Below the pieces are notes generated by a model that worked only from the letters and a program-made list of their open reading frames with translations, had not been told where the DNA came from and made no database searches. DNA of 64,000 bases from Cymbomonas tetramitiformis (Eukaryota > Chlorophyta > Pyramimonadophyceae > Pyramimonadales > Pyramimonadaceae): the NCBI GenBank assembly GCA_001247695.2, contig LGRX02035281.1, positions 17,957 to 81,956 of the forward strand, read 5' to 3'. The position numbers and the translations under genes are program-made. Below are positions 15,487 through 39,203 of the stretch, piece by piece; position 1 is the first letter of the stretch, and every line of letters begins with the position of its first letter.

Positions 15487-15984
15487 GTGTGATGAAAACC
15501 TCAGAGGATAGGGAATTGACATTCTTTGTGGTTATGACTTATGCATGTTAAGATCTTCCCATATTCACACGATCGCGTAGACGCGTACGTAATCGGAGCA
15601 GACAGGATGAAGCGGATGGCCACTCGTTTATTATTTGTGCAGCGGTGATTATAAAAATATTCATCTCATCAAGCGATCAGAGGAATTCGTCACAATCTAT
15701 CCATCAATGAAGATATCAAACTATGTATGTTGAAATGCTTACTACTCATCATAGCATTATGTATGGCAGGATGCCATGACGTGAGTTATTGGATCGCCCA
15801 TATCACATCCATGGGTTTATAACATAAACCACATTTTATGTTCTCGCTCCTCGCTAGCATAACAACATAATCGACCTCTGTGTGTTCACATTGAGTGTGT
15901 GTCTATGTCACATACTTGTTGCCACTTTTGCTCTACTCTCGATGATATGGTCTACAAGTGCATAATATATACTCGTGCCGCGGA
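15487..15984. other. Intergenic spacer between convergent ORFs
   Basis: AT-rich DNA with no open frame of note, conserved at 40630-41127 in the right module B copy. It would hold the 3' ends of both convergent transcripts. Confidence 0.5.
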
Positions 15985-17406: not shown

Positions 17407-17627
17407 TTATGTGGCAATGATATCCTATGACACAACAACAAGTCCCAATTCAAGAACGAAAAATATGAATGAATGAGCAAAATAATCTTGATTATTATTG
17501 TTGTGAACATAACTTCATCATTATTATGCAACTTGCCCCCGGATCATTTCATACAACACACACACACACACATATATATACATATTATATCACTCTAAAA
17601 ACACCATATATATAGAGTACTATATAT

Positions 17628-17658
<31 letters not shown>

Positions 17659-18119: not shown

Positions 18120-19315
18120 GTTTGTGTGTGTGTGCGTGTGTGCGTGTCGGTGTGTGTATGGATGAATGAATATTGTTATGTGTTGCGGGCTGTGTGGCTT
18201 TAGCATGATTTCTAAATTAAGTATGCGTGTACTTGCTATGTCGTATACTTGTGTAGACTGTGATGTAGCAACTTTTCTAAATTATGTATGCTTGGATTGA
18301 GTATGTATGCAGTACTTGTATAGGCTGTGATATATCACAATGTGTATACTTATACTTGGATTTACTAGGTATACTATCTTGCATATGCTGTAATATGTTG
18401 TGTCTTTAGTAGCAAATTTTCTAAATTATGTAGGCCTGGATTTACTATGTATACTTGTATAGGCTGCATGGGTGATATAGCATTTTTTTTCTAAATTAAG
18501 CATGCTTGGATTTTCTCTGTATACTATCTTGTATAGGCTGTATTATGTTGTGTGGCTTTAGCAACTTTTCTACAATAGAAGTGTGGTTGGATTTGCTATG
18601 TATACTACTTGTATATACAGCTTATATACAAGATAGTATACATAGCAAATCCAAGCATACACAATTTAGTTTATGCAACCTACTACTATACAAATGTACA
18701 TAGCAAATCCGAGCATGCCTAATTTAGACAAGTTGCTAAAGCCACACAGCCTGCACACAAAGCCTGCACACACACACACCCACACACCCACACACAGCAA
18801 TATGCATCCATTCATACACATGCCGCACAAGCATGTTCACACGCGCGTGCGCACGCGCGCACACACACACACAACACTGCACAAAAACAAAACAAGGTTG
18901 ATTACTTAATTATTTTGCTGGGTTTTGATGAAGTCTAGAATCACATTGCCAACAAATATGGATAGAAAATTCTCCGGGGGCAAGTTGCCTAATAATGATG
19001 CAGTGATGTTCACAATGACAATTATGCCACAGCCTATACATGCATGCATAGCAAATCCGAGCATGCGTAATATATGAAACATGCTAAAACCACACAGGCC
19101 GCACCACACATACACACATAGCAATATTTATCCATCCACGATACAAATGCATGAGCGTGGTCACACACACACACACACGCGCACACGGCACACTTTTGGG
19201 AAAAAAAGAATTTTCATTATGGAGTTTCATTAGTCTTCCAGGGCCTGCTGTTTTAGCGGGTGCCTCTGTATTACACATTGTGATCTCTTACACACGGTGT
19301 GGCAGAGAGTATACA

Positions 19316-19349
<34 letters not shown>

Positions 19350-19419
19350 GTACTATATGTATATGGTGTTTTTAGAGTGATATAATATGTATATATATGT
19401 GTGTGTGTGTGTGTATGAA
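18120..19419. repeat. Palindromic interior of the foldback element
   Basis: The motif GGATTTGCTATGTATACTA (about 18588) faces its complement at about 18640, forming a hairpin of more than 40 bp per arm centred near 18617. Diverged copies of the motif (TGGATTTACTATGTATAC and similar) recur several times to the left. GT-rich DNA (18110-18160) pairs with CA-rich DNA (18765-18880). A further relative of the terminal repeat (CCGGGGGCAAGTTGCCTAAT) lies at 18976, suggesting nesting. Confidence 0.65.
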
Positions 19420-19892
19420 ATGATCCGTGAAAGCCAAAAAAAAAAACGTCTCAGCGTCCGAAGGGCGCGAGCACTGGAAAAAATGTTTTTTCGCGCATAT
19501 TGTTTATGATAATATTTTAGGTTTGAGTAGACGTTTTTCCTAGAATTTTGTCGACCAGAAGGTATTTTTCGACCCCTGTTTTGCTTCTTATAGTGAAATA
19601 TGGTGTCTTTTGCATCAAACCCTAAACCCTGCGGTATGATCTCGCTTTAGCTTGTATGATTTCTTGATATATGATATGAATTTTGAGTACCCAGCGACCT
19701 GAGTTTTTTACGAAGGTCCTGGGGAAAGAGTAACAAAACGCCTGGAGAAGCTGGAGAGCCTTGAGCTCTCCAGTGAGGAACCAAAACCATAAAGCACAAC
19801 ATTCCGCACAACTGAAGGAAAAAAGAAAAAACAACCTCAGAACTCTAACGCGCTTGGTTGTCGCGTTGTTGATAATCTCACACAGGAGAATT

Positions 19893-21710
19893 ATGAGCGA
19901 AGAAGGAGCCACAGATATGGACGCGCACACCCAACCAGAAACCATCCAGCAGAAATATGACTTTATGCGGAGTATGAACTCAGACGTGATTCGTGACAGT
20001 GATAAGTGGAGCGCTCAATTGGACCAGGACACAGTCTCGTCCCTCATTTATGCCACTTTCCTTGCGAAAGCAGACGCAGTCTTCGCAACTCGCAACATTC
20101 CAATAAACCATAAGCAGTTTTTCGGAAACATTCAAAGGCCATCCACTATGTGCACCTTCCTGTGGAACATTTTCAGACACGCGATAAATATGTGTTCGGT
20201 GAAAGGAAACGAAGTTGTCATTGAGTCAGCAGCAGCAACCACAAACGTTGAAAAGTTAATAAAGTACACCAGGAATACAGTTCAGAGGGAGAACATCAGA
20301 AACATTGTCGAAGCACTCCTGGAATTCGACTTGTATTTTCCCACACTGGCGTCAGTTCAGACACAAGTTGAGGAACGCATTGCGAAGCAGGCATCGGAGT
20401 TAACACAGCAGTCCCCCTCAGCCTCTGGATTAGCAGAAATCGACCTGGGTGCACACGAGGGAGCACAAGCCGAAGGTGCTCAAAACGAGGCGGAGAAAGA
20501 GGAAGAGGACACTTGGGAAGAAAGAGAAGAAGCAGGTATAAAATTAAACAGCCTCCCATTCTTAACCTGTTTAATCACAACTGCCGCATTGCAAAACGCA
20601 GTAACGAAAGCTCACGCACAGCATTTAGAGATAGCAAGCATTTCTTTTCTCATTCTTGCATTTCTAACAGCTGTGAACACAGGCGAGTACGACGGAATCG
20701 ACGGGCTAACTGGACAACGAGAAGTGTCACTTGTCAACCACGAAGAGGAAGCTGAGTTCGACTTGGCATCTCTACAAACGGCAGTGGACTACTCTGAGAC
20801 GGTGAAGAACGCCGAAACCGAAATCGAAGGCCACGAAGGTGACTTGGAGAACGAGGACTTTCTCCAGACACTGAAGATCACGAGACACAACGTCCAGAAC
20901 ATCGCGCGCTTCACTGGACGCGAGCTGAGTGAAGTCAGAAGGCAGTGCGAGGAGACCCTGACCAGGAAGCATCTCGACGTTGGCTCACTGGCAGTTGACG
21001 GTTTGTCGCGTAAGGTGGACGCATCGGGTGTCGCTAAGGTAAAAACCGCCCTCTCACTTCACGTAAAAAAGCATTCTCATAACTACTGCTCTTGCATTAA
21101 GCGCCATTAGCCTTTCAAAACTTTCATTCCTATAAACATTACGACAACGTGCATTCTAACTAGTGTAAAAACGCAGACTCCCTTCATCAAAGTTCAGCTA
21201 AAGAGCGAGGACGAAGCTGCCGCAATTCTCGAGCTGGGAATCCTTTTGGTGGACGGGCAGCGTTTCAACATCACTCCCAAATCTTCAAGACTAACTCGAT
21301 TCAACCTGTTCCTGCGTGCTTCCGCTCCCAATCTCCAGGTCTCAACGGAAAACATTGTCTCATTTCTGCTCACGACTCCATTTGCAAGCTTTGTAAAGCG
21401 GGTTGTCTTTCAACAGACATTCACAGAACAACCAGGCAAGGGCAGAGGATCACGGCTGGTCAGAAGGATCTACGCAGTACTCAGGCCCCCAGTTGCAGCA
21501 GCACCGGAACCGGCAGTACCGGACATTCAAAATCCGGAGCACGCAGTTTACTTCATTCCACTTCAGTACATCTACAACCCTGTTGGAGTTGTCCTGATTA
21601 CCCAGTGCAGTGCCCACGAGTGTTTCAAGTGTGCCCCATCTCCCAAAAGGTTCGGTCATTGTTCCAAGAACTGTATGGACAGCGGGAAAGGGAAGGGAAA
21701 GGGGAAATGA
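19893..21710 (+). CDS. LINE ORF1 (Gag-like, zinc knuckle)
   Basis: The first in-frame ATG is at 19893. The first ~380 codons are acidic and helical with an E-rich patch (around 20470-20530). A 138-bp segment, 21039-21176, begins GTAAAA, contains CTAAC near its end, closes with CAG and holds the only stop (TAG at 21108); removing it as an intron keeps frame. After it the protein reads TPFIKVQLKSEDEAA..., a pattern like the RRM-type domain common upstream of zinc knuckles in LINE ORF1, and then CFKC...RFGHCSKNC, a CCHC knuckle. A TGA at 21708 follows a GKGKGK stretch, but the same frame continues as Gly/Pro-rich sequence. A second optional intron, 20536-20670 (135 bp), is also in frame. The role would be RNA binding in the retrotransposition particle. 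Confidence 0.7.
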
Positions 21711-21857
21711 TCTGGTAAAGGAAAAGGATCAGGAGGAGGAGGCCCCCCAGGATTCCCACCAGGAGGCCCTCCAGGACCGCCGAGTACCCCCACAAAAAAC
21801 TCAGCCAAGTGGGAAGCAGCAAAAGCTAAAGCATTAAAGAGAAAGCTCACCCCCTCA
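21711..21857 (+). CDS. ORF1 C-terminal extension beyond an in-frame TGA, truncated by insertion
   Basis: In the same frame as ORF1, the codons after TGA encode SGKGKGSGGGG, then PPGFPPGGPPGPP and a lysine/alanine-rich stretch up to the insertion at 21858. Skipping the nested element, the frame would resume at 24375 and read about 25 more codons to TGA. The unbroken low-complexity composition on both sides of the stop suggests the TGA is a recent mutation or is read through. Confidence 0.45.
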
Positions 21858-24374
21858 TGGCTATTACCCGGAAGTACTGGTAATAGTACTTTCGACGCCG
21901 AAAGTACTGTCACAAGTACTTTCACGGCATAATTTTTTTCGGGGTCTTCCCATTATTGGGGGGGGCTGCCAATCATATCCCAGTCCCCTAAGGACCTAAA
22001 CTGAGTTGTCTTATGCCCCATTGGTCGGCTTTCCACTTGTAGCCTTCTCAATGGATGCTAGAAGCCAAGGGGGTAGCATTTTTTGTTACATTCCATTGTT
22101 TTGTAGTTGCAAAGATAGTGCCCTCTCCTTTTGAATTTTTTGAAAGCACGCATTGGCCGATGAACAAGCTGGCGATCACTCAAATCATAACTATATATCG
22201 CATCTAATCATGTATGTGACAATAAATCTGATGACATGATGGCATGTATGATAAGTTGCGGGTCAAACCCAGCCCTACAAGTGTGTTTAAACTAAGGGAT
22301 CTTATGGTAGGATAGGGTACACAAGTAGCATGCCGTGGATTCTCCCAACGGGCACCCTTGTACCGAGTATCGCTCGGAGATGATTTGTAACGATGTTGTG
22401 GACTATGAGACCCATTTTTGGGACCCCGATCGATGTCTAAGGTGCATATTTGAGTTTTGAAGAGAGTTCAGAGCCTACAGACAGCGTACCAGTACGCATA
22501 CACAAGTAGCATGCCGTGGATTCTCCCAACGGGAACCCTTGTACCGAGTATCGCTCGGAGATGATTTGTAACGATGTTGTGGACTATGAGACCCATTTTT
22601 GGGACCCCGATCGATGTCTAAGGTGCATATTTGAGTTTCGAAGAGAGTTCAGAGCCTAGCAGACAACGTACCATTACGCATACACAAGTAGCATGCCGTG
22701 GATTCTCCCAACGGGCACCCTTGTACCGAGTATCGCTCGGAGATGATTTGTAACGATGTTGTGGACTATGAGACCCATTTTTGGGACCCCGATCGATGTC
22801 TAAGGTGCATATTTGAGTTTCGAAGAGAGTTCAGAGCCTAGCAGACAACGTACCAGTACGCATACACAAGTAGCATGCCGTGGATTCTCCCAACGGGAAC
22901 CCTTGTACCGAGTATCGCTCGGAGATGATTTGTAACGATGTTGTGGACTATGAGACCCATTTTTGGGACCCCGATCGATGTCTAAGGTGCATATTTGAGT
23001 TTTGAAGAGAGTTCAGAGCCTAGCAGACAGCGTACCAGTACGCATACACAAGTAGCATGCCGTGGATTCTCCCAACGGGCACCCTTGTACCGAGTATCGC
23101 TCGGAGATGATTTGTAACGATGTTGTGGACTATGAGACCCATTTTTGGGACCCCGATCGATGTCTAAGGTGCATATTTGAGTTTCGAAGAGAGTTCAGAG
23201 CCTAGCAGACAGCGTACCAGTACGCATACACAAGTAGCATGCCGTGGATTCTCCCAACGGGCACCCTTGTACCGAGTATCGCTCGGAGATGATTTGTAAC
23301 GATGTTGTGGACTACGAGACCCATTTTTGGACCTTGATCGAAACACCATAGCAAGACCCTACTTTTATGTTATCTTACCAGAGTAACCACTGAGTGTGTA
23401 ATATGTTAGGAATGTGCGCTGCTATCATTCTGAGTGGGAATATAGTGGCCTCTACGTGTTCACATTAGAGTTTAAGAAAGTCAAAATTAAAAAAAATCGT
23501 GCAGTTGGAGTAATTAGGCTCCAAAATTAATTTTCCTGAAATTAAATGTGGCAGTGTGTCTGGAAATCTATTGTTTAATAGTAGGGTTGATTCAAATCGG
23601 TTCGGCAAGCGGTGTAATACTAGTACGGTCATGCATTAATGTTAAGATCGATATATTTGATATATACATCACTTTATAACTCGCATGGATCGCAATATCG
23701 AGGCAGTTATGGCAATTTGGGTTTGGGTTTGAATGTGGCCAAAATGGCATTATTGTGGAGTATGTGACCAGCATTCCGCTTGGGAGGAATGCCATAAATT
23801 GTGCAAGCTAAACATGGATCAAACCCCTCAACTCAAAGGACACTCATCTATGGCAGTATATCGAATTTTAGAAATGTTAACGAGCTCTATACATTCACAT
23901 ATGCGGTCACCATGCACCCACATATGACGTGCACCATATGGACGGTGACTATGGAAATCACGAATTTTTCTGTATTTGATGAGCGCGGCCCACATCACCA
24001 CGTGTTTTGAGCCCCAACCTTTATCATAATAGCATGCAACGTAGCACACGTTCGAACAAGGTCCCAATAATGTTGGGCACCGCTTTACTCGACATCCTAG
24101 GCCCATTAACAGCACCTAACAACACATCTAGTCGAAAGTACTTGTGACAGTACTTTCAGAAATTAATTATTTTCTGGTTTTTCACACCCTAAAAGTATGC
24201 TATAAATATACCAACCTAAACTTGATAACGGCACGTGTGAGTCATTTGGGAAATTAAAAAGGGTCGTAAATGAATTTTCAAAAATGTTAAACGACCCATA
24301 TCACCAAGTATACCGGATATCACATAGTTTTAGCAAAGTACTTGTAATAGTACTTTCCCGCCGGGTAATAGCCA
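21858..24374. mobile_element. Nested TIR element (2,517 bp) with CTCA target duplication
   Basis: Perfect 14-bp terminal inverted repeats TGGCTATTACCCGG and CCGGGTAATAGCCA bound the segment. Inside them both ends carry AAAGTACT-type palindromes (AGTACTGGTAATAGTACTTT at left; AAAGTACTTGTAATAGTACT at right, again near 24130). CTCA occurs at 21854-21857 and 24375-24378. No transposase is evident, so it is non-autonomous. It carries the 182-bp satellite and about 800 bp of AT-rich DNA without genes. It interrupts the tail of LINE ORF1 and therefore came after the LINE family formed. Confidence 0.85.
22319..23335. repeat. 182-bp tandem satellite, about 5.6 copies
   Basis: Units beginning ACACAAGTAGCATGCCGTGG start at 22319, 22500, 22682, 22864, 23046 and 23228, a period of 181-182 bp. 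Copies are nearly identical; alternate units differ at the same few sites (for example CGGGCACCC versus CGGGAACCC, GTTTTGAA versus GTTTCGAA), hinting at amplification of a multi-unit block. The array is wholly inside the nested TIR element. Confidence 0.95.
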
Positions 24375-24551
24375 CTCAGCTCTCAGCCCTGCTCACAAGA
24401 TCCCCGCAGGAGGCAGCCAGAGACAACCCCTGACACAGGAAGGTGACGAAGGAATTAATCTTGCTGAAGGTAGATACTGAGAAATTGGTCTGCTTAATCC
24501 GTCTCTTCTCTCTGAACACTTTCTCAGACTTTGTGATCCCGGGCATCTGAT

Positions 24552-25736
24552 ATGCAAGTGACCCACACTAGCATTCCTGCAACCAGAAGAGCCAATCTCT
24601 TCCTTGCTCTGCTCATTGTAACCCATCGGCCAGCAGTAAATTTAAGTATGCACAGCAAACATTTAAACCCCTGCTCTTGCTCTGCATTCTCTTTTATAAC
24701 TGCTGTACACTCCCCACAGTTTGTCTCACCACACAATGCATATTTCTCTCAACTTCAAAAGCTCAGTCTAGAAGCAGAGCACGGACATATATATGGCCCA
24801 AAATTCACGCTCAAACTTGCATTATATAGTCACCTTCATCATATGGACCCTTCTGTGAACGGCACACTGTCACTAAACAAATGCAAAGCACCCAACTGGC
24901 ATAATAATAACCTGCCACTTGATAAACACTTATGCAGTGAATACAGTTCCTCACATAGCTCACCTCCCGAGGCACCCGAACCAACAAACTTACAAGATAA
25001 CCTGCACCGGTTACTCAACACTACAATATTAATAAATAACCACACACGGTGCCTAGCTAACTTAAGAGGACGGGAAAACAAAGCAGGAAACACTACACAA
25101 TATGCAGGTAACTTAACACGGCATACTGATAACTCAATGCATTATACAGAAAGTTTGATAACATTTACACGGTGCTTAGAAAACAACATGCGGTCAACAA
25201 ATAACACAAATAAACCCATATACTTTCCGAAGCGGTTTGTTGCTAACCTGAAGCGGGTCACGGCAAACTTAGCTTGGTGTTTAAACAACTTAGAACTGAA
25301 TGCAATACACCGTAATAGTACTGATAAAATAATTTTACGAGAGGCTCGGGGGCACGAACACATGATTTTAGGGGAAAAGGCGGCTATAAGCACCAAAATA
25401 ATGGGAAACCCTAACCTCTTGAGTCGATACCTAGTGAATATGGGACGGGTAGAGGTGCGTAGGAGTAAAATTGGGCGAAAATATTTCACACAATGCTTAT
25501 ATATGACAATAAGGGATAGTAGGGAAAAAATAAAGGCAAACGGACAACCTTGGACCGGAAGCGAATTGCATGAGGCACAATTCGTTAAAAATCGAAATTT
25601 TGCAAAAAAAGAGCCTAGAACCAAAAAATTTCCGGGAAGGGATCCGAGGACTTATACGAAGCCATGTGCGAAAGAGGAAGGCCCAAATAAACGATATGGT
25701 AGCCGAGGGGAGGCAACAGGTGGGTGTAACGCGTAA
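24552..25736 (+). CDS. LINE ORF2 N-terminal region, heptad-repeat domain
   Basis: Opens with ATG at 24552 and ends at TAA when the frame shifts near 25700. It is rich in Asn, Thr and Lys. Between about 25030 and 25300 it is built from 7-residue units (RCLANLR, QYAGNLT, RFVANLK, RVTANLA, WCLNNLE) with consensus aromatic/hydrophobic at position 2, Asn at 5 and Leu at 6. I know no family for this. The repeat continues in another frame downstream (RYIAKLT, RWTENLK, KYTFNLI at about 25870-25930), which proves that a frameshift joins the two pieces. Confidence 0.5.
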   Translation: MQVTHTSIPATRRANLFLALLIVTHRPAVNLSMHSKHLNPCSCSAFSFITAVHSPQFVSPHNAYFSQLQKLSLEAEHGHIYGPKFTLKLALYSHLHHMDPSVNGTLSLNKCKAPNWHNNNLPLDKHLCSEYSSSHSSPPEAPEPTNLQDNLHRLLNTTILINNHTRCLANLRGRENKAGNTTQYAGNLTRHTDNSMHYTESLITFTRCLENNMRSTNNTNKPIYFPKRFVANLKRVTANLAWCLNNLELNAIHRNSTDKIILREARGHEHMILGEKAAISTKIMGNPNLLSRYLVNMGRVEVRRSKIGRKYFTQCLYMTIRDSREKIKANGQPWTGSELHEAQFVKNRNFAKKEPRTKKFPGRDPRTYTKPCAKEEGPNKRYGSRGEATGGCNA

Positions 25737-26046
25737 CACGGAGAGCACAATAATGCTCAGAAGCCACGGAAATGGGGGAAGCAAGGTGCGCACTGGTCTT
25801 GCAAAAGACACACGGGATGCAGTCAAGCGGGCTACAGATAAACTAATACGGAGCTCGGAAATAATGCGGCGATACATTGCAAAACTAACGCGGTGGACGG
25901 AAAACTTAAAAAAGTATACTTTCAATCTGATATGGGCCGAAAATAAATCAATACTTTCTGTCGGTAAAACTACAAATCACCCTGAGAACTTAAGACTGTA
26001 CTTAGTAAACCCAGCACGGACCGAGACATATTTTAAATGGAGATAA
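25570..26046 (+). CDS. LINE ORF2 fragment, second frame, continuation of heptad domain
   Basis: Only the part after about 25650 is likely coding. It is lysine/arginine rich, then carries three further heptads matching those in the preceding frame, and ends TGGAGATAA, where an ATG overlaps (ATGGAGATAA) and opens the next frame at 26037. Either a single-base indel or a coupled stop-start could join it to the protease frame; sequence alone does not decide. Confidence 0.45.
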   Translation: MRHNSLKIEILQKKSLEPKNFREGIRGLIRSHVRKRKAQINDMVAEGRQQVGVTRNTESTIMLRSHGNGGSKVRTGLAKDTRDAVKRATDKLIRSSEIMRRYIAKLTRWTENLKKYTFNLIWAENKSILSVGKTTNHPENLRLYLVNPARTETYFKWR

Positions 26047-28370
26047 TAATTGATAAAGACATAAGCGGCAGCATAATTATGACATATTACATAATGCGAC
26101 ACCTCTTGAGATGTGAGGAGAATATTAAGACACGAGCAGAACTGCAAAAGATCATCTACGGGCCCGCTATCATGCTTTTTCATTTAATGGCGGGACTTAG
26201 CAAAATGAAGTTGAACTCTAAACAATATTTTCCAGGGCCTAGAGTCATAATACACTTAGCTCACAAGAGACCTAAGGCATGCAAAAGGATCAGCAAGGGC
26301 GCCTTGAAATACATGATACAAAACCCCCAAATGGCATGGCTATGGGAGAGGGCACGGCCCCAAAATATAAAGAAATCTAAAATGAAATCACCCCTAAAAA
26401 TAACGAAACGTAAAATCCACCGCAAGAAGGGCAATGACACCGAGCAACATAATATGCCTGAACCTGATCAGATGTTAAGCGGTGGTGCAAGCACCGAAGA
26501 TAATGCAATAGATGGAAATAGGATGGCCACGGAATCACTGTACTCAGAAAAGGGGTGGTTAAATGCAACCCATGTCGGTGACGTAATGAAAATCCGGGAC
26601 CCGAGTACCATTGCCCCCATGGACCTCACAGACATGATGCTAAAAATGACATTGGAGGATCAAAAATTCACACAACTCATTATTAGTAGACTCAAGAAAT
26701 ATGGCCACACACAAATAGGCGTGTGTGACAATATACACTGGCGCCTCATAATGATCCGCTTGTCATCACCTGGGAAAATAGAAGCTTACATATATGACCC
26801 CTTTGGAGATAGAGCCGAAAGAGAAACCATCAATACGATTGTGGTAGCACTCAGAACTTGGCTGGAAAATCTCATAGCCACCACAGAACATAAGGTATTC
26901 ATAATTACCATTAGCAAAGATACATTTCAAACAGATACATACAACTGTGGCACATGGGTAGCAAAAACTGCTTTCAGATGGGCCCAATGGAACAGAGGTT
27001 CCCACCAGACCTCATTTTTCGAGTACCTAAAGTATGATCTATGTAGCGGGGAGTATGGCGACAAAACAATGCAAAAAGAAATACATAAATACCGATTAGA
27101 AATCAGGAAAGAAATAGAGCAGCTGGACAAGAATATCCGCAACACACTGGAGCTCAAAAACCTGGAGCCCAAAGGAAATGACGCGGTAACCAGCGGCCCA
27201 AATATGACTTCCCCCTCCCACCATATCCTCACACGGAGAGGTGCCACACCTAAAAAGCAGATAGAAACTCTGATAGAAACTTTCAGACTGGAATGGAAGA
27301 CACACACCACTAATGAAACAATTGTTTCAGAAGCCATTGAATCACATAGGAAATATCATCACACCTCGAATACGAATAACACCAACATTCAAATTCATCT
27401 CCTTGTGATAAATGAAATATGGTCAACTGCGGTCCACATAATTCCAGAAAGAAAGATTATTTATTGTGATTTTGATATTTCTACCAATAATCACCAGAAA
27501 GACATTTTCACACCTCTCCCAAAAGACCTAAGTGTGCACCGCATAACCTTGAAACTGGGAGTACACCCGAACAACATGGGGGTTTTCAATTTTACACTAG
27601 CCCACAAAGCCTCCCACATCCTGCACAACACTAAATTCTTCTCGGCAGCACAACTAAACAGAGATCTACGATACGAACTTGAAAACCTAAACATTAGAAT
27701 TCTTCCGCAAACGGGCAGAGAAGCTAGAATAACCAAACGCGAAAACAACAAAGCCATCTCAACCATACGACAATCATTAAGATCTCACCTCCCGAAAATT
27801 GATGCACATCCTACAAAGCCAAATCCTGAAAACAAAGAGTGTAAACCTAACTACACTGCTTATAATCACCTCATCTCAGGCAAAAGAAAACTTTCTAGCG
27901 CACACCACACACATGGATACCGCAGGAAACACTCTCATAAACAAAAGAGAATAATCCAAAAGACCAAATGCACAAACAAAATCTTTGATTGTGAAAACAT
28001 TTATGACGCAGATGGCAGATGCATCTTACAAAAAGCAAAACACAAAAGCGTTAGTAAACAATCTGAAGAATTAGACCGACTTACAAAACTACAACTAGCA
28101 CAACACTCTGGCAGTCTGATCATAATGGGTATGAATATGAGAGGCCTCCGACACCACAAAGAAGATAAAGACAGTTTGGTTAAATTAGAAACAATTTGCA
28201 ATCTTTTAATTGACAAACGGGCCGATATAATTTGTATATCAGAAACCAAAGTGAATACTGAAAACCTTGCATTAATTAAAACCCTAATGACACAAAAAGG
28301 AATCCAATTCCCCTATGATCTTATGGAACCCGAAAAGTTTACCACTTTCCATCTTGGTTACCACAATTGA
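26037..28370 (+). CDS. LINE ORF2: Ulp1/C48-like protease pair and endonuclease N-half
   Basis: This frame has 777 codons. Residues ~205-320 show the Ulp1-type catalytic set: His234 in HWRLIMI, Asp254 in YDPFGD, Gln298 in FQTDTYNCG and Cys304. Residues ~455-560 look like a second, degenerate copy: WSTAVHII with His467 and YCDFD with Asp478, but the expected Q...C box reads HPNNMGVF, without Cys. From ~690 the AP-like endonuclease begins, with Asn700 in GMNMRGL and Glu736 in ISETK. The frame stops at 28370; the endonuclease continues in the next frame, so a +1 shift lies near 28335-28365. Ulp1-like domains are known in several mobile elements, where they may process the polyprotein or remove SUMO-like modifiers; which applies here is unknown. 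Confidence 0.85.
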   Translation: MEIIIDKDISGSIIMTYYIMRHLLRCEENIKTRAELQKIIYGPAIMLFHLMAGLSKMKLNSKQYFPGPRVIIHLAHKRPKACKRISKGALKYMIQNPQMAWLWERARPQNIKKSKMKSPLKITKRKIHRKKGNDTEQHNMPEPDQMLSGGASTEDNAIDGNRMATESLYSEKGWLNATHVGDVMKIRDPSTIAPMDLTDMMLKMTLEDQKFTQLIISRLKKYGHTQIGVCDNIHWRLIMIRLSSPGKIEAYIYDPFGDRAERETINTIVVALRTWLENLIATTEHKVFIITISKDTFQTDTYNCGTWVAKTAFRWAQWNRGSHQTSFFEYLKYDLCSGEYGDKTMQKEIHKYRLEIRKEIEQLDKNIRNTLELKNLEPKGNDAVTSGPNMTSPSHHILTRRGATPKKQIETLIETFRLEWKTHTTNETIVSEAIESHRKYHHTSNTNNTNIQIHLLVINEIWSTAVHIIPERKIIYCDFDISTNNHQKDIFTPLPKDLSVHRITLKLGVHPNNMGVFNFTLAHKASHILHNTKFFSAAQLNRDLRYELENLNIRILPQTGREARITKRENNKAISTIRQSLRSHLPKIDAHPTKPNPENKECKPNYTAYNHLISGKRKLSSAHHTHGYRRKHSHKQKRIIQKTKCTNKIFDCENIYDADGRCILQKAKHKSVSKQSEELDRLTKLQLAQHSGSLIIMGMNMRGLRHHKEDKDSLVKLETICNLLIDKRADIICISETKVNTENLALIKTLMTQKGIQFPYDLMEPEKFTTFHLGYHN

Positions 28371-30084
28371 TGGTGATGCAAAAAGGGCAGTAATGACAAA
28401 ATTTTCAGGAAATAACGGTCTGGAGCTCTACATAGCCAGCGGTTACATGAATGATACCACACTAGTAGATGAACAAAAGGAATTATATGACACACTCACT
28501 GACTGGGCAGGAAAGGCAGGAAATAATCCTAAAAAGGCCTACATAGAGATAGGTGACAAAAACTGTACTATTACCCCAAATCAGCGGGTGGGTGGAAATT
28601 ACATGTCATATCAAGAGCATGTCGAGAAGAATAAGCATCTTCTAACTTATTTCAACAATGACAAATGTTCCCTCAATGAACTGATCATGGACCGAAACCC
28701 AAACACAGAAATTTTCACACATGTTATATCCAAAAACTCAAAAGCAAAGCTCACTCATATCATGGCAAACTCTACTATGGCAGAAATGACAGTTAAATCT
28801 GGATGGACGGAGGAAAACCCTTATATCATCTCCGACCACGGGATAGTATGGGCTGAATTTAAGCTCCCTCAAAACGACACTAAACCTGAGATAACTTCAT
28901 ATGCAACTTTGCCAACACCTAGATTTAATGGTGCCAAGGAAACCACACATGATGAGTACCCAGGTTACCCAATCAGAATGACAAACAAAAACACGGATAC
29001 AAAAAGGAAAATAAACAAGAAAGATATTGTAGGTCTCCTTGAAGCAAACGGATACAGCACAAATGAACTTGTGCACGCGTGCATCAATAAAAACAAAGCA
29101 AGAGACGCTATCAGCACCATCAAGGGTGACACCACTGATCTTGATCTTAAACGGGATAATACTGACGGCAGCCCCATAACAGTGAGCAAGCTCATAGCTA
29201 AAAATAAAGAGACAGACAACATAGAACAATGTTTAAAATGGCACAACAAACCCAAGGAATGGTGGATTCACCTTAATAGCCCATGGCATGCAGCTCATTT
29301 ACTCTCTAGAGGAAAGGGGATGCCAGAAGGTGGTCTCAACTTAGGCCATAACGACAAAGATAACATCTGGCATATAGGTTCGCCACACCTACTAAATAAG
29401 AAAGATGTAAATGCCTATCTCAAACGTCACCTTTCATTCAGCTCACTGGAAGTTAAGAAAATCACGAAATCCAGCACAGATGATCACATGACCAGCTGGG
29501 ATATTCTTCTACAACCCCATATGCCTGCTAAATTCTGGAACCTGTACGGATCTGAGATGCATTCGGAAAAAATAGACTGCACCACTCATTTATTCCAATA
29601 CGCTACAGGCTGGGTGTCCTACACTGAGAGACTACATAGCACACTTGAAATGGATAATGGATCGGAAGCAGCTAGAAACGGCGGCACTGGCCTCAAGGAA
29701 ATGCACCCTGACGCGACATGGGATACCCTGCACAAATTGGCACATCAGGCGGCAAGTGACGCCTTTGGCACCAAGAATCTTAACAAAACTGGGAGGTCAG
29801 AAAAACCATCAGCAGTATCTAACTATATATACAAATGGCTAAACACAGTACGCCGCACCATCAAATATTTGGATACAAGAACCCATGTTAGCAACATTCC
29901 GAAGCAAGCCAAAAAGGCTGCCCGCACACTACCGTTTGCCGCGCTCCAACCCAAACTCAATGAAGAAGCAGCCACATGGAGATTACGATTGCATGAAAAT
30001 TATGTAATAATCAGAAATGCTTTTCAAAAAAGCAGAGACACCGACATTGAACGACGCAAACTTCGAGAAAAAGAAGCCTTGTAG
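28315..30084 (+). CDS. LINE ORF2: endonuclease C-half and linker, ends in TAG
   Basis: True homology to the endonuclease starts after the frameshift near 28345. GDKN (28552-28563) stands where AP endonucleases have GDFN, and SDHG (28831-28842) holds the catalytic Asp-His. About 400 residues of linker follow, with no domain I recognise. The frame ends at TAG 30082-30084, but the same frame reopens at once and leads into the reverse transcriptase 14 codons before its ATG. The simplest view is one polyprotein with a stop mutation or a readthrough codon. Confidence 0.8.
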   Translation: MILWNPKSLPLSILVTTIDGDAKRAVMTKFSGNNGLELYIASGYMNDTTLVDEQKELYDTLTDWAGKAGNNPKKAYIEIGDKNCTITPNQRVGGNYMSYQEHVEKNKHLLTYFNNDKCSLNELIMDRNPNTEIFTHVISKNSKAKLTHIMANSTMAEMTVKSGWTEENPYIISDHGIVWAEFKLPQNDTKPEITSYATLPTPRFNGAKETTHDEYPGYPIRMTNKNTDTKRKINKKDIVGLLEANGYSTNELVHACINKNKARDAISTIKGDTTDLDLKRDNTDGSPITVSKLIAKNKETDNIEQCLKWHNKPKEWWIHLNSPWHAAHLLSRGKGMPEGGLNLGHNDKDNIWHIGSPHLLNKKDVNAYLKRHLSFSSLEVKKITKSSTDDHMTSWDILLQPHMPAKFWNLYGSEMHSEKIDCTTHLFQYATGWVSYTERLHSTLEMDNGSEAARNGGTGLKEMHPDATWDTLHKLAHQAASDAFGTKNLNKTGRSEKPSAVSNYIYKWLNTVRRTIKYLDTRTHVSNIPKQAKKAARTLPFAALQPKLNEEAATWRLRLHENYVIIRNAFQKSRDTDIERRKLREKEAL

Positions 30085-30126
30085 CATCTTTTCTCAACTA
30101 ACCTTTCGAGGTTTCTAGACACAGTC

Positions 30127-33100
30127 ATGGGAAAGATGAAACCTACTGAAAAAGGTGCAGCCGCTACCCCAGGTAGTGATGGAAAGATACCTGAGACAAA
30201 GACAGAAAGACTAAACACAACACTAGATGAATACAAAAATAAAAAATTATTTTCTACTAACCCGAATGAGCCAGATGAACTCCCACAGTGGCTCACTGAC
30301 ATTCTCAAGGATAGCCCTAAAATCCCCGATACGGCCGCCGCGAGACTACTGACAGAAATCACGCACAAAGAACTTCAACAAGCATACTCGGACTGTGGTA
30401 TCTCCACAGCACCAGGACCCTCAGGAATGAGATACTCGCAGTGGATCAAGGGCCCAGAGAATTTTCAAGAAGTTACTGTCTCACTTTTTAACCACATTCT
30501 TATAACTGGGAGATTTCCTAAGAGTGCAAAATCTGCAGTCATCCTTCCAATCCCTAAAAACCCCTCTGCACCATGTACAATAGATAATTCCAGACCTCTC
30601 ACAATGTTGGAAACGGGTCTTAAACTATTTAACACAATAATTGCTAACCGTCTCAAAACAATACTTAACACCCACCCCATTCTCTTTCCCATTCAAGATG
30701 CCTTTCTTCCGAATAAAAACATAGATGACTCACTCCAAATTTTGAATGAAGTAATATCGGATGCCAATAGATACGACAAAGACCTCCACGTAGTTTACCT
30801 GGACCTCAAACAAGCTTTTGACAGAGCTGAATTCTGGATGAGCAATTTAGCGCTCAGAAAGTTAGGACTCCCATCACAAATAATTAACATCACCTCAGAC
30901 ATCACCGATGATGCCTCTAGAATGGTACTCACTGAAGAAGGCCTCACAGATGAATGGTCCCTCGAATGTGGAGTTCCTCAGGGAGAAGTTTTGAGCCCAC
31001 TAAGGTTTGTAGCCATTATGGACATTCTGGCAATTTGGTTAGCAAAAAGAGCAAACGGTGTAAACCCGACAGGAACCACATATGGATATGAACTGAACTC
31101 TGAACGCCATAGACCAGACAAACCAGGAAATAATGTTATTCCTCCCTCCCAAAACCTATTAGAAAAGGACACCACTTTAAATATCTTTGCACGGTTCTTC
31201 TGTGATGACATCATTCTCGTGGGGAAAACTAAAGACGAAGTTCAAGACATGCTAGGTATAGTTAATGAATTTATGAGCTTCATCGGTATTCCCATCAATG
31301 TTAAGAAATCCAAATACTCTTACAGAAAGCGCATCAAACCTCAGGGCAAAACGGTAACGCGATATGACCTGTCCGATGATTTACTCATCTCAGGGGGTCA
31401 TCTGGAGCCCAATACAAATGACTCAAGTCCTTCCATTGATTCGAAATGGATACCCCCTGAGTCACCAGAATTCCTCGATTTCTCCAACAGCAAAGAGGTA
31501 AACAGATATCTCGGAGTATGGTTTGCACTAAATGGGGAATGGGACAAACAGGCGGAAATCCTTATCGACAGACTTAAATCTACCCTAATATCCATCCAAC
31601 TGCAACACATGACTCTACACCAGCTAAGATATGTTATAAATGCGGTTGTAGTACCGAGGATGGCATACCCCCTTAAAGTTACCTCAGCAATTGCCAACTC
31701 CTCAAAGAATGTCGCAATTGAATTAGACAAAATGATAGCTTCGTTTATAATTAAATATTTGGGCTGCCCAGTTGACACCAATCACCAAATAATCTGGACA
31801 GCAGTATGCCAAGGCGGGTACGGTATTGATAGTGTCTTTGATATTGTAACCGCGACGTGTATTACTGAAACTATGAACACCCTGTGTTCTGCAGATGAAC
31901 ACGAATATTGGCAACACAACCACACGGACCGTATCACTGATCCCCACCTCATCTCACTATATCGTAGAAACAGCAATTTATGGCTTAAAATAATAATTCA
32001 AAACATGAACAACGAAATGGGTAAAAATGCCATCTCGGGCTTCCCCTTATCACACTATGTAACCTACAGTCACACAAAAGACAAACGCTTTAACTGGTTT
32101 AGGCGTACAGGTCACATTATGGCAAAACTTGGATACGCTATCGACTCTAAAAATTACCCTGAAAATGAAGCGGGTGAAACCACATTAATCACCACCCTTC
32201 CCAGACAACTCTACATGTCGAGGAATGTTACCTCCGCAATACAAAAATATAACCTCAAGCACACAGGTTCCTTTCTGACTCCCTGCGGTGGAATGTTAAA
32301 AAACTGGCAAGAAAGTAAAGGCTTTTTCAGGCTGAACGGTAATAGACCTCCTGGATGGCTAACCGAAATCGAAAAGGAAATGCTTCAAAACCCTGTAGAT
32401 TTGGACCCACAGGCCAGATATGTCAAGAAACAATATAGAGACAACACAGTACCCCCCGACACGGGTGAATTTCATTGGAAAGGAAATGGTGACCGAAATT
32501 CCATCTCTCTTATTCACATTACGAATATTGACTCAGAGGCCATGTCAATACAATATACAGAATACAGTAACAATGCCATAAACCCTAATGTCTTTGTCAG
32601 AATCGAAGGTACCAACAGTTTTAAATACGACTTTGAATATAGCATCACCAATGACGGTTGCATCCTAATTCCAGCAGGTTCTATTTTCGAATATAATGAC
32701 CATATGGACCCGCCCTCTTCTGTCCTTGCTACAGTCAGTGATATTAACTCACACTATGATTACATCTCAGACAGACAGTATGAGACCATTATTGCCAGAA
32801 TGAAAAACAAAACTGCGGAGGAAGAAAGTGAATACAGCTGCCCTAGCGACTCGGAAGAAGAATCCACCCCCAACGCCGAAAAGAGCAAACAAATGGAAGA
32901 TTATGATATGGCAAGCGATGGTTCTCTATTTGCTGGAAAGAAAACAGCATGCAGTGGTGCAGCATATGCCATAAAAAACTTTGACAACGGGATGCCACTT
33001 GTTCGGAAGATGAATATCCCCCCCTCAAGAACTTTCTCCGCATCGGGGCTTCTTATCAAGGAAGATATCCAAAACCCGAGTAGCACATCTGCTGAAATTG

Positions 33101-35382
33101 CGGGACTGCGATTTCTACTCACAGAACAAAAAGAGAAACTCCTCAAATCTATTACTCCAATGGTACATGCCATTGACTCCATGGCAGCAATATCTGCTGT
33201 AACAAAGGATGGCAGGTCCATGAGTGCTCGGGACAAATTACGTGAAGCTAATCGCAGAGATGTGCAGGCTGTTCGCCTACTGTTAGAAGAACTTGGTTTT
33301 TACAGTGAAGGAGACCACAGCAAAATCATCCTCAAATGGATTAGGGGTCACAATAATGACAAAGTCCATGACAGAGTGGACCGTACTGCTAAAAGAGCCT
33401 CATTCAGAGGGGGCTGTCTAGACATCTCCCGCTACGACCCTGCCGAGGAACTACCCTTCTCGTTATTCTTTTTTGAGGTCCCTATCTTAGGCGATATCCG
33501 TAGTCACATTAGAAGAATTCAACGTCTCTCACACTATCATAATTGGAGAACTCTACAGTCTCAAGGGAAGTACTTGAGAATGCTCAACGAGAATAACACC
33601 GCCCCCACTAAAGATATTTCCAAAATAACACCTAAAGCTTTCACCGCTTCTAGAAGCAGAGAACTCCTGGGTCTCCAAGCCTCTCCAGCACGTTTATTTA
33701 AACTGGGGGAAATCGGGACTGAAAACTGCCCCTACTGCCAACAGAATACAAAATGCACCTTCGAACACATCCAACTTGAATGCTCAGGACATAATAATAG
33801 CTTGCATAGTCTTAGAACAACCCAAGATGGCGAACTAAGGAAAATCATTGCTGAAGAAATCTCAGAAAAGCCCAAACTACTAAACCCTGGAAAAGGTACC
33901 ACATACATCAAAACAGAGCCATCGAAACTTTTTCCACTTGCTGACCTTAGACAGGAAATGAAGGAGGAATTACACTTACACGCTCTCCCGGAAGCTAGCA
34001 TGTACCGACCATCAAGTTCAAAAAAGAATACCATTGCTGTGGCCGCTAAACCTGAAGTGGACCATGTCACGGGGACAATTAAATATCCCGAACTCCAATA
34101 TGTCCAGAAGAAAGAGTTTTGGAAACTTTTGGCCTGGCACCGCCTTTCCAACAAAGCAGTTCCATGCTCACTTGCGGAGTACTCGAATAGGGCACACGAT
34201 ATTCACGAAGCACTCAATGCATGTAAGTTTGAATCGGGGGATCCTAAAAACTGCTACGCAATCAGAAGAAGCCTCTTAGATATTTTGGTGGATGACAGGA
34301 ACCTTGACAAAAACGGCTGTGAACTTTTCTCCAACCCACTAAATGCCCACCCTAGAATTCACTCGAGAAGATGCATACCCACCACAAGAATTAAGAAAGC
34401 TCTCAGGCCCTTCTGCCATCATGGGAAAATTGGCTTTGATGGTCTCGCTTGGGATGCCTACGTGGATCCGATAACAGGCATCGGCAGAATCGTTTATGGA
34501 AATCCCCCCTTTGATGGGAAAGAAAAGGGCAAATCATCGGCGGTTATGACTACCTTGGAAATGGGACATAAAGCGGCCAACACCGTCCCCGGATTTTCAG
34601 GAACATGGATTCTTCCGCTGTCTCCCAAAAACCAAAAGAGATGGTTCGACAAAGGTTTTAAACTTGTTTTCAGATTCCCGCATAACACTATTCCATTTAT
34701 CCCACATGTATATTGGACGGGTGATGACCCCTACGTTCTCCCAGGTGGTGGATGCTATAAGGATGACTTTTCGGATGTTGTTATCATAGCTATAGACAGT
34801 GCACCCAGTGATACTCAACCAGTCTTTGACTGGAGGCCTACACAGAAAAAGATTGCCAGATGGTTCCTCAACGTTCTTCCTAAGTCCAGAGTCACGAAGA
34901 AGAGGCTAGAATACACAGGAGTCAGCTCTGATATTTGGGATGAAGTTCTGAACGAAAGAGACGAAGTACTTCCTTCTTCGCTTTGCCCATGGCCCACTCA
35001 AGACCCTCCTTATCATCAGAGTGATATTGAGCCTTATTATGGTGGTCACCACGACACGACAATCACCAACGCAAATTCCAAGCCCTTCATAAACACCGTT
35101 AAATGGCCCAAAGTTCTCACACTCATGGGATACCTCCCTCCTCTTTTTGGTACTGTCCTCAACACGATAGGTGTTCCCCGTGGCAAGATTAAACCTCTTC
35201 TCAAAAAACTATTAAGACTTTGCAGGCAACACACCAAAAATAGGCGAGACGTGTTTCTGTTAAACACCACCACCACCTTAAACACTGACCCGCATACAGT
35301 TGACATCTCGAGAAGTGAAGCCATGACAGAAACAGAAGCTGTGCAACAATCAAACGACTTTCTTCAAACCCTCCTGCAATAA
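30127..35382 (+). CDS. LINE ORF2: reverse transcriptase, RNase H, CCHC finger, Dam-like methyltransferase
   Basis: This frame has 1,751 codons. RT: APGPSGMRY (~96), YLDLKQAFD with Asp226 (motif A), GVPQGE at ~282 (motif B), FCDD at 358-361 (motif C; FADD is commoner). RNase H: Asp931 in MASDGS, Glu990 in TSAEIAG, Asp1017 in HAIDSM, His1075 and Asp1082/1085 in RGHNNDKVHDRVD. Zinc finger: CPYC...EH...C, 1201-1219. The remaining ~530 residues are unusual for a LINE. FSNPLNAHP (~1401), FDGLAWDAY, YGNPPF (Asn1459-Phe1462) and WILPLSPKNQKRWF follow the order of motifs in Dam-type N6-adenine methyltransferases, in which NPP[YF] is the catalytic loop. RT and RNase H copy the element RNA at the target; a methyltransferase role is unknown. 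The frame ends at TAA before a C-rich 3' UTR. Confidence 0.93.
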   Translation: MGKMKPTEKGAAATPGSDGKIPETKTERLNTTLDEYKNKKLFSTNPNEPDELPQWLTDILKDSPKIPDTAAARLLTEITHKELQQAYSDCGISTAPGPSGMRYSQWIKGPENFQEVTVSLFNHILITGRFPKSAKSAVILPIPKNPSAPCTIDNSRPLTMLETGLKLFNTIIANRLKTILNTHPILFPIQDAFLPNKNIDDSLQILNEVISDANRYDKDLHVVYLDLKQAFDRAEFWMSNLALRKLGLPSQIINITSDITDDASRMVLTEEGLTDEWSLECGVPQGEVLSPLRFVAIMDILAIWLAKRANGVNPTGTTYGYELNSERHRPDKPGNNVIPPSQNLLEKDTTLNIFARFFCDDIILVGKTKDEVQDMLGIVNEFMSFIGIPINVKKSKYSYRKRIKPQGKTVTRYDLSDDLLISGGHLEPNTNDSSPSIDSKWIPPESPEFLDFSNSKEVNRYLGVWFALNGEWDKQAEILIDRLKSTLISIQLQHMTLHQLRYVINAVVVPRMAYPLKVTSAIANSSKNVAIELDKMIASFIIKYLGCPVDTNHQIIWTAVCQGGYGIDSVFDIVTATCITETMNTLCSADEHEYWQHNHTDRITDPHLISLYRRNSNLWLKIIIQNMNNEMGKNAISGFPLSHYVTYSHTKDKRFNWFRRTGHIMAKLGYAIDSKNYPENEAGETTLITTLPRQLYMSRNVTSAIQKYNLKHTGSFLTPCGGMLKNWQESKGFFRLNGNRPPGWLTEIEKEMLQNPVDLDPQARYVKKQYRDNTVPPDTGEFHWKGNGDRNSISLIHITNIDSEAMSIQYTEYSNNAINPNVFVRIEGTNSFKYDFEYSITNDGCILIPAGSIFEYNDHMDPPSSVLATVSDINSHYDYISDRQYETIIARMKNKTAEEESEYSCPSDSEEESTPNAEKSKQMEDYDMASDGSLFAGKKTACSGAAYAIKNFDNGMPLVRKMNIPPSRTFSASGLLIKEDIQNPSSTSAEIAGLRFLLTEQKEKLLKSITPMVHAIDSMAAISAVTKDGRSMSARDKLREANRRDVQAVRLLLEELGFYSEGDHSKIILKWIRGHNNDKVHDRVDRTAKRASFRGGCLDISRYDPAEELPFSLFFFEVPILGDIRSHIRRIQRLSHYHNWRTLQSQGKYLRMLNENNTAPTKDISKITPKAFTASRSRELLGLQASPARLFKLGEIGTENCPYCQQNTKCTFEHIQLECSGHNNSLHSLRTTQDGELRKIIAEEISEKPKLLNPGKGTTYIKTEPSKLFPLADLRQEMKEELHLHALPEASMYRPSSSKKNTIAVAAKPEVDHVTGTIKYPELQYVQKKEFWKLLAWHRLSNKAVPCSLAEYSNRAHDIHEALNACKFESGDPKNCYAIRRSLLDILVDDRNLDKNGCELFSNPLNAHPRIHSRRCIPTTRIKKALRPFCHHGKIGFDGLAWDAYVDPITGIGRIVYGNPPFDGKEKGKSSAVMTTLEMGHKAANTVPGFSGTWILPLSPKNQKRWFDKGFKLVFRFPHNTIPFIPHVYWTGDDPYVLPGGGCYKDDFSDVVIIAIDSAPSDTQPVFDWRPTQKKIARWFLNVLPKSRVTKKRLEYTGVSSDIWDEVLNERDEVLPSSLCPWPTQDPPYHQSDIEPYYGGHHDTTITNANSKPFINTVKWPKVLTLMGYLPPLFGTVLNTIGVPRGKIKPLLKKLLRLCRQHTKNRRDVFLLNTTTTLNTDPHTVDISRSEAMTETEAVQQSNDFLQTLLQ

Positions 35383-35789
35383 TTCTCAAAAAATTTGCAA
35401 TAAAAGATGGTCCCGTGTCCCCAAGGGGAGGGTAGCCCCCCTCCCCTCCCCACCACCTCCCCCTCTCCCCCGCCCACCCTGACCCCTTCCTCAACGTCTC
35501 CAAAAACCCCCTTAATTCTCCGACTTCTCTCCCCACCGCCCAGATTCAGCCACCCCTCCACTCACCCGGCCATGGCTGCTTCTCCATCTTCTAGAGTTTT
35601 TTGCCTAGCACTTAGCTTTTTCTCTAGATGTCACCCTGCTGAAAAGTGGGTTGAGCCCCTTTGTGGGCGCGCTATAGCAGAGGGAGTAGCCCCTGGTGTT
35701 TTCACTAGCCTGCTTTGCAGGGATACCGCACTCTCAGGACTTTGTCCCCTTTGCTAGCGTAAATGTTTTTTATTATTATTATTATTATT
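35383..35789 (+). other. LINE 3' UTR and (TTA)n tail
   Basis: A pyrimidine-rich stretch (35415-35560) is followed by a segment with hairpin potential. The element ends with TTTTTTATTATTATTATTAT against the target duplication. Microsatellite tails rather than poly(A) are known for several LINE clades. Confidence 0.8.
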
Positions 35790-35844
35790 ATGATCCGGGG
35801 GCAAGTTGCATAATAATGATGAAGTTATGTTCACAACAATAATA

Positions 35845-35940
35845 GGAAAAAAGGTTATCGAGGAATAGATAAGTGCATAATGGGGAATATAAATTCCGTC
35901 CTGTTTTTGGGGAATAGAGTATATATGTCACATGACATCG
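35845..35940 (-). repeat. Diverged module-A end, inverted
   Basis: On the minus strand this matches the last ~90 bp of module A (CCAAAAACAGG...GGAAT...ATTCCCCATTATGCAC), with clear divergence, and it lies exactly where module A would abut module B. It indicates that the left locus was once a B-A unit like the right one, now interrupted by the foldback element. Confidence 0.65.
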
Positions 35941-36231
35941 AGCCATGCCATTTATCGTTTCGGAGGTACAAGCGCAAGCGGTTCAGCGTGTGCAATATTT
36001 TGCGTCTGGCACACCCCCTTCTTCTAAACAATTTTTTGCATGTAGCATGAAGCATAATTTTTTCCACCATTCGATTCTAAAGCGTTTGTATTCATTAGGT
36101 GAATACCTTTCGTTTGAGCTATCGATTGGCCCCATCCGCAACCGCATCAGCTTAGCCTTCGCGACTGCAAGCTAAGTTGGTGCGGTGTGAGATGGTTTCA
36201 ACCACTTGCGGCTTTGCATAATAGGGGTTTT

Positions 36232-37215
36232 CGTGAGAATCTTCTCACGAAACTTGGCAGTGATATTATTCATATCAATATCAGTGCACCCTCAAGAGCA
36301 TATGGCAAGCCGTTGAGTATATTAAAGACGGCCGCGTGCTGGCATGATGCCTTTTGGGTTTGAAACCCAAACCCAAACATGCCAAACAGCGAAGGGCTTC
36401 CCGTGAGTTCCAGCGCACGTAACTTTGCAAAATATATTGATAAGATGCATATATTTTACTTTCCTGAAGTGCAAGTTTTGCGATAGCTTGTGCGCGAAGT
36501 TAACATATTATTTCTTTGACCCAGATTTATGAGTTTGTATATCACGCTAAAATCTGTGTCAAAGAAATAGTAATACCATTTTGCGCACAGACTTTCTTAG
36601 ACCTTGTGCTTCGAATATATCAAAGATAAATATCTTGGCAATATTTCTACGCAGTTACGTGCGCTAGAACGCACGGGAAGCCCTTCGCTGTTTAGCATGT
36701 ATTGGGTTTGGAAACATTCGAACCCAAGCCCAATAGATCTGCCAAAGAAATAAATTGATGGTTTTGCCAACAAGTTATCTCAAACCTTGAGCTTCTGAGA
36801 ACTGAAAGATATGTGTCTTCTAAATATGTGTGCATAGTTTCGCGCGCTATAACGCACGGGAATTGCTTTTCAGTTTGGCATGTATTGGGTTTGGGTAAAC
36901 TCGAACACAAACCCAATAAATCTCCAAAGAAATAAATTGATGGCTTCGTGCACAAGGCTTTTGAGGCCTTAGGCCTTTGGCAACTAAAAGATATATATCT
37001 TAGTGATACTTTTGCAAAGTAACGTGCGCTGGAACTCACGGGAAGCCCTTTGCTGTTTGGCATGTTTGGGTTTGGGTTTGCATGTACCCAAACCCATTAT
37101 GTGTAGCACGCGTTTTGCGCATAGCTCACATCAGAGGTTGTGCGTTTGAGGGTGCACCAATATTGCTGTTAGCAATATTGGTGCCAAGTATCGTGCGCTA
37201 GAACGCACGAGAACC
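36232..37215. repeat. Nested inverted-repeat block
   Basis: The outer arms pair around GTGCACCCTCAA (36286) and its complement (37148). Inner arms pair 36356-36480 (AACATGCCAAACAGCGAAGG) with 36955-37083. Three or four further copies of the motif GCGCTAGAACGCACGGGAAG or its complement lie between them, each followed by TTTGGGTTTGGG-like text. No protein is encoded. It looks like a MITE or foldback that has duplicated its own arms. Confidence 0.65.
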
Positions 37216-37424
37216 CCTCCGCTGTTTGAGTTTTGATGCGATGTGCATGAAAGTTATAAGGGCCTCTCAGCTGAGCTGATGCGGCCACGGATCGGCTCAG
37301 TCAAGAGCTCAAAAAACTCCTACCTAAGAGTCTAAATGATATATCTATGTGCATTACGAACGTTGGAAAATGTTTTCCCAATCTAATTTACTCGCAAACA
37401 GTGTGGGGTATACATACGTGCAGT

Positions 37425-37492
37425 GAAATATTCACGGCCGTGAATTTAATATTCACGGCCGTGAAATTAATATTAACGGCCGTGAATTCCAG
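37425..37492. repeat. Three tandem palindromes TTCACGGCCGTGAA
   Basis: AATATTCACGGCCGTGAATT occurs three times in a row with small changes (the third reads TTAACGGCCGTGAA). They sit immediately upstream of the right module A copy. Perfect palindromes of this size could bind a dimeric protein; no function is known. Confidence 0.85.
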
Positions 37493-37504
37493 ATTCGGGA
37501 GGGC

Positions 37505-39107: not shown

Positions 39108-39203
39108 CACAATAATAATCAAGATCATTTTGCTCATTCATTCATATTTTTCGTTCTTGAATTGGGACTTGTTGTTGTGTCATAGGATATCATTGCCACA
39201 TAA

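Follow-up and report, generated by a model that had tools for sequence, protein, structure and literature searches.

What kind of retrotransposon would carry a protease, an endonuclease, a reverse transcriptase (RT), an RNase H and a methyltransferase on one strand, and on what would the methyltransferase act? The question is raised by contig LGRX02035281.1 of the green alga Cymbomonas tetramitiformis, of which 64 kb (positions 17,957 to 81,956, forward strand) were analyzed; this whole stretch is called the window here, and all coordinates refer to it. It contains a damaged copy of a long interspersed nuclear element (LINE), and we put at roughly one half the probability that its lineage has a PCIF1/CAPAM-type N6-methyltransferase, fused to the end of the RT polyprotein, that methylates the cap-adjacent adenosine of the element's own mRNA.

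Boundaries of the inserted element

The window holds an inverted duplication (14415-17512 versus 42220-39099, 97.7% identical), the left arm of which (14415-17512) has neither the LINE nor the segment at 35845-39098. The minus strand of 17493-17658 matches the 5' flank of the LINE, up to 19427, in 108 of 118 columns (seven gaps, simple-repeat stretch) and its 3' flank, from 35790 on, in 55 of 55, the two matches overlapping by 8 bases. Because both flanks are joined there, with ATGATCCG as the overlap, this is the empty (pre-insertion) site, present in the opposite arm, and the inserted unit is therefore 19428-35789 on the plus strand, 16,362 bp including a nested DNA transposon. The octamer ATGATCCG is present once in the empty site (17540-17547, other strand) and on either side of the insertion. 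An earlier reading of the letters and open reading frames (ORFs) alone, from here on the sequence-only reading, had proposed one LINE at this position, ending in a (TTA)n tail and flanked by a target duplication of 8 bp, and the empty site confirms it. A 43-bp duplication of the flanks (18973-19015 versus 35794-35836), considered as target duplication, was dropped after the empty site was found. In a search for long terminal repeats (LTRs), the two ends (19400-19760 and 35380-35800) did not match each other. With a LINE-type RT, a target duplication, a simple 3' tail and no LTRs, the element is a LINE (non-LTR retrotransposon). Its RT, apurinic/apyrimidinic (AP)-type endonuclease, duplication and tail point to target-primed reverse transcription, by which it would move as established for LINEs. 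A direct repeat of ~1.5 kb (205-1730 versus 37579-39108, 91% identical) adjoins the right arm of the inverted duplication.

The C-terminal methyltransferase domain

The sequence-only reading had called the last domain Dam-like, which is not the best name for it. Judged by predicted structure, its nearest fold is that of PCIF1/CAPAM, the mRNA cap adenosine N6-methyltransferase. A PCIF1 entry or PCIF1-named protein ranked first in all five fold comparisons and the PCIF1 fold was found in two models, the match spanning ~215 to 240 residues at ~10 to 15% identity. With the viral library, PCIF1 came first and phage Dam proteins were weaker (from 3e-4), and in the PDB comparisons rRNA adenine methyltransferases ranked after PCIF1. 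Dam as nearest kin was rejected on this ranking in the viral library and since no family named Dam was listed, in Pfam or PHROGs, for the 23 aligned members; the 50 best rows of VIA-align include none for Dam, a result that alone excludes nothing. The same rankings and the same lack of a Dam-named family make it rather unlikely that the domain is a DNA or internal-RNA adenine methyltransferase that places a mark on the target or on the freshly made cDNA, a role suggested for the methyltransferases of DIRS elements. A mark on the new copy or its target had also been the earlier proposal, but with PCIF1/CAPAM as the nearest fold the role points to RNA instead.

Two motifs were recognized, ELFSNPLN (34321-34344) and NPPF (34501-34512). 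The latter is present in this element and in 14 of the 15 homologues with a recognizable motif (27 homologues in all); most of the other 12 stop before or begin after the motif, and one, P0043, continues but departs from the family sequence before reaching it. According to excerpts of the PCIF1 study, activity is lost when NPPF is disrupted (PMC6318281). One might also think of a domain that keeps the PCIF1 fold but has only a structural or RNA-binding task in the retrotransposition complex, which would suit a sequence so far from PCIF1. LINE proteins do need to bind the element RNA. Still, NPPF and its neighboring residues are kept across lineages that are ~30% identical, which fits catalysis, and we give this alternative little credence.

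Relatives and domain order

Following the plus strand, the order is protease, endonuclease, RT, RNase H, zinc knuckle and methyltransferase (Table 1), so that the catalytic motifs of five enzyme types described by the sequence-only reading have all been located on one strand. The RT carries YLDLKQAFD at 30796 and FCDD at 31198-31209, and its best solved relatives are the R2 and LINE-1 RTs (E values of 4.7e-23 and 3.3e-18). The AP endonuclease motifs (28119-28851) were found in order by eye; the Exo_endo_phos match is below cut-off both in this copy (0.11) and in the whole domain of the relative P0003 (0.012). Residues D931, E990, D1017, H1075 and D1085 of the RNase H (30127 frame) are invariant in all four aligned sequences.

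A protein search returned 20 proteins. Of these, P0001 (54% identity), P0002 (30%) and P0003 (29%) cover 62, 91 and 97% of the query, respectively; the remaining 17 match only in the RT region. P0003 is a single ORF of 2566 residues that spans everything from the endonuclease through the methyltransferase; P0002, its near twin in the RT, has the part from the RT on, and P0001 sets in ahead of RNase H and likewise reaches the end. The C-terminal domain as query added 24 proteins, mostly fragments, including P0038, also from C. tetramitiformis, which is 63% identical over 576 columns from RNase H to the methyltransferase start, in keeping with a pyramimonadalean host. No relatives were found in the viral_contigs and genome_contigs collections. 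Given the damage to this copy and the transposon nested in it, a methyltransferase gene might have come to lie beside an unrelated LINE by chance, or the contig might be misassembled. Such a chance fusion, which the sequence-only reading had itself considered, is extremely improbable: over the parts that they cover, P0001, P0002 and P0003, on other contigs, show this domain order within a single chain, and the unit is bounded as a whole by the empty site. In the RT tree (22 rows, without Dualen, I, CR1 or RTE references) the element groups with P0002 and P0003 (100/99) on a branch of their own among the 22 sequences, and the wider fork that takes in the long-branched P0019 lacks good support (84/89). 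The proposal of a new LINE lineage with these enzyme types is supported, with endonuclease, RT, RNase H and methyltransferase recurring in relatives; for the protease region no homologue was found.

Table 1. Coordinates of the features of the element and its insertion site
Feature	Position	Strand	Basis or remark
Empty (pre-insertion) site	17493-17658	-	Opposite arm of inverted duplication
5' target-site duplication ATGATCCG	19420-19427	+	Empty-site comparison
ORF1, gag-like (predicted)	19893-21710	+	C-terminal CX2CX8HX4C knuckle; interrupted by an in-frame stop (21108)
Nested DNA transposon	21858-24374		14-bp terminal inverted repeats (TGGCTATTACCCGG); target-site duplication CTCA
ORF2 part one	26037-28370	+	Protease, uncharacterized region, AP endonuclease start
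C48/Ulp1-type cysteine protease core (candidate)	26727-26972	+	PF02902
AP endonuclease (candidate)	28116-28851	+	Motifs MNMRG, SETK, GDKN, SDH; frameshift and apparent deletion near 28300-28340
ORF2 part two	28291-30084	+	Ends at in-frame stop 30082-30084
ORF2 part three	30127-35382	+	1751 codons; RT, RNase H, zinc knuckle, methyltransferase
Reverse transcriptase	30550-31344	+	PF00078, 1.8e-21
RNase H	32911-33384	+	PF00075, 0.0042, below cut-off
Zinc knuckle CX2CX9HX4C, zf-RVT-like	33727-33783	+	PF13966 in relative P0022, 1e-4, below cut-off
PCIF1/CAPAM-type methyltransferase domain (predicted)	33973-34869	+	Fold comparison, NPPF motif
(TTA)6TT tail	35770-35789	+	Six TTA units plus TT
3' target-site duplication ATGATCCG	35790-35797	+	Empty-site comparison

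ORF2 starts at or before 26037 and is broken twice, by a frameshift within the endonuclease (~28300) and by the in-frame stop at the end of part two, which sits inside a stretch co-linear with P0003. Because the sequence on both sides of these lesions is co-linear with P0003, this copy is considered defective. The coding strand is A-rich over 24001-34000 (AT skew of 0.17 to 0.30); L1 elements are likewise A-rich on the coding strand.

The PF02902 match of the candidate protease (E value of 6.4e-4) has 20.1 bits against a cut-off of 20.7, i.e., 0.6 bits under, and was obtained with a trimmed piece only, longer pieces being unlisted. All the candidate catalytic residues of the 26037 frame are present: H234 (26736), D254 (26796), Q298 (26928) and C304 (26946). 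A PDB sequence search with this region gave no match to a protease, and comparison with the protein database yielded 5006 candidates, none of them significant, which speaks against the reading given at the outset. As no homologue was found and the region is outside P0003, the protease is possibly not a constant part of the element. It might have joined this copy or subfamily only recently rather than being a lasting part of the lineage, a suggestion with some appeal, given that P0003 starts at the endonuclease, but one that we rate as less likely than not: a single open frame of 777 codons holds both the protease, its catalytic residues intact, and the start of the endonuclease, and P0003 may be truncated or have its protease encoded in a separate ORF. 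A second region that the sequence-only reading had put forward (residues 455-560 of the same frame) had no match in profile or database searches; within it, residues 461-515 (27417-27581) resemble, to the eye, another protease-type fold in which the catalytic residues have been replaced, also without a database match.

Proposed role of the methyltransferase

LINE ORF2 proteins show cis preference, i.e., they stay with their own mRNA after translation. Bound in this way, the ORF2 protein of the element would methylate N6 of the cap-adjacent adenosine, and the mark would protect the element RNA against decapping or increase its translation; the C48 protease, for its part, may cleave SUMO-like host targets or the polyprotein itself. 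As described in excerpts of PMC6318281, PCIF1 acts on the first transcribed adenosine, beside the m7G cap, which it methylates at N6, and works best with the full cap, and the portion seen of PMC10946433 ties the mark to DCP2 resistance and to translation. More tentatively, the lineage might write its own cap mark, m6A(m), in cis on element RNA shortly before its reverse transcription, which would selectively stabilize or conceal that RNA; PCIF1-like genes may serve giant viruses in the same way. If true, an element would have a new means of governing what becomes of its RNA, namely an RNA-cap-type methyltransferase encoded by a LINE, and the question would arise where the PCIF1-like enzymes of algae and giant viruses originated.

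Several results weigh against methylation of the element's cap by a PCIF1-type enzyme. With the element's own model, Foldseek separated PCIF1 (6irx, 1e-3) from a bacterial methyltransferase (4.7e-3) by a small margin, at a TM-score of 0.36. By hhalign, the score against two vertebrate PCIF1 cores was 17.0 with only NPPF aligned, which is not significant (maximum of 20.9 in 50 shuffles; core from 14 of 23 rows). The hmmsearch score against PCIF1 was -1.9 bits (profile from 15 of 19 rows), and at least that was reached by 377 of the 857 NPPF-keeping and 164 of the 619 full shuffles that were scored. Alignment A4 omits five of the 27 homologues (P0033, P0034, P0035, P0043 and P0044, the last of which looks chimeric) and alignment A5 omits nine. 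Queried with the single domain or with profiles of 4 and 23 sequences, the PDB gave no sequence support for kinship with PCIF1. PF12237 did not match this element itself, and the best of its other hits had 15.4 bits, under the curated cut-off of 31.1, so we use the name "PCIF1-like" and do not call the domain a member of the family. PCIF1 has an N-terminal cap-binding helical domain; the aligned PCIF1 range is mainly from residue 414 on (three zebrafish rows start at 178), which leaves that domain largely outside the match, so cap specificity is unsupported. The inserted copy begins with TGAAAG and not with A, the transcription start being possibly different, and P0002 and P0003, near-identical in the RT, count as one lineage. 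A DNA pattern for the PCIF1 motif hit 15 loci in viral contigs, none PCIF1-like in the frames read by eye.

Comparison with known elements

DNA methyltransferases are carried by several retroelements, Dam by DIRS and DNMT by SymbioLINE, SymbioDIRS and Gypsy. SymbioLINE-Dnmt is a LINE with a methyltransferase, like the one described here, but as far as the excerpt goes it is a cytosine DNMT in ORF1 (de Mendoza 2018, PMC5890265), whereas the present domain, which closes ORF2, is of adenine type and has an RNA-cap-type fold; Pfam scans of the ORF1 frames gave no cytosine DNMT. DIRS elements with Dam share the presence of an adenine methyltransferase in a retroelement but, in the parts consulted of two papers, use a tyrosine recombinase (PMC6338049, PMC5890265), unlike this endonuclease LINE, which makes a target-site duplication and has a fold nearer PCIF1. 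The methyltransferase fold and NPPF are shared with PCIF1/CAPAM and the giant-virus PCIF1-WW proteins; in contrast to PCIF1/CAPAM, the domain is fused behind RT and RNase H, and Pfam scans of the frames detected no WW domain. As for the protease, some NeSL and Utopia LINEs have an Ulp1-like cysteine protease upstream of the RT but encode a restriction-like endonuclease, and the word methyltransferase is absent from the text of that paper (PMC4640811). In this element no restriction-like endonuclease turned up in Pfam scans, no search being aimed at it. The host of Dualen/RandI, like that of the present element, is a green alga. These elements also share the RT and RNase H and have an AP endonuclease, for which the present element has a candidate, but, in the same excerpt (PMC4640811), Dualen combines AP and restriction-like endonucleases, and the element has a C-terminal methyltransferase instead. 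In the literature listings searched (titles and abstract starts, part only), no LINE carrying an adenine or cap methyltransferase came up, which lends weak support to its absence from print. The sequence-only reading knew of no described clade of LINEs with these enzymes that also ends in an adenine-methyltransferase-like domain.

ORF1, nested transposon and the rest of the window

ORF1 is gag-like, as judged from its knuckle and its position; its frames (19761-21107 and 21111-21707) matched no Pfam family. Two stretches in it look like introns (20536-20682, 147 nt, and 21039-21176, 138 nt), with GT...CAG ends, lengths that are multiples of 3, CTAAC shortly upstream of the CAG and a G+C content of 0.38 to 0.40 (0.48 to 0.55 around them). 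The second contains the only stop codon that interrupts ORF1 in frame. Were these introns real, the copy would derive from unspliced RNA. Because the nested DNA transposon, which includes 182-bp tandem repeats (22297-23323), occupies part of the insertion, the LINE proper is ~13.8 kb. Rfam and tRNA scans of the window gave nothing. At 43228-44781 there is an ORF of 517 codons with weak matches, below cut-off, to DEAD/ResIII helicase and PriCT_2 primase domains, possibly a replication gene of a virus or mobile element.
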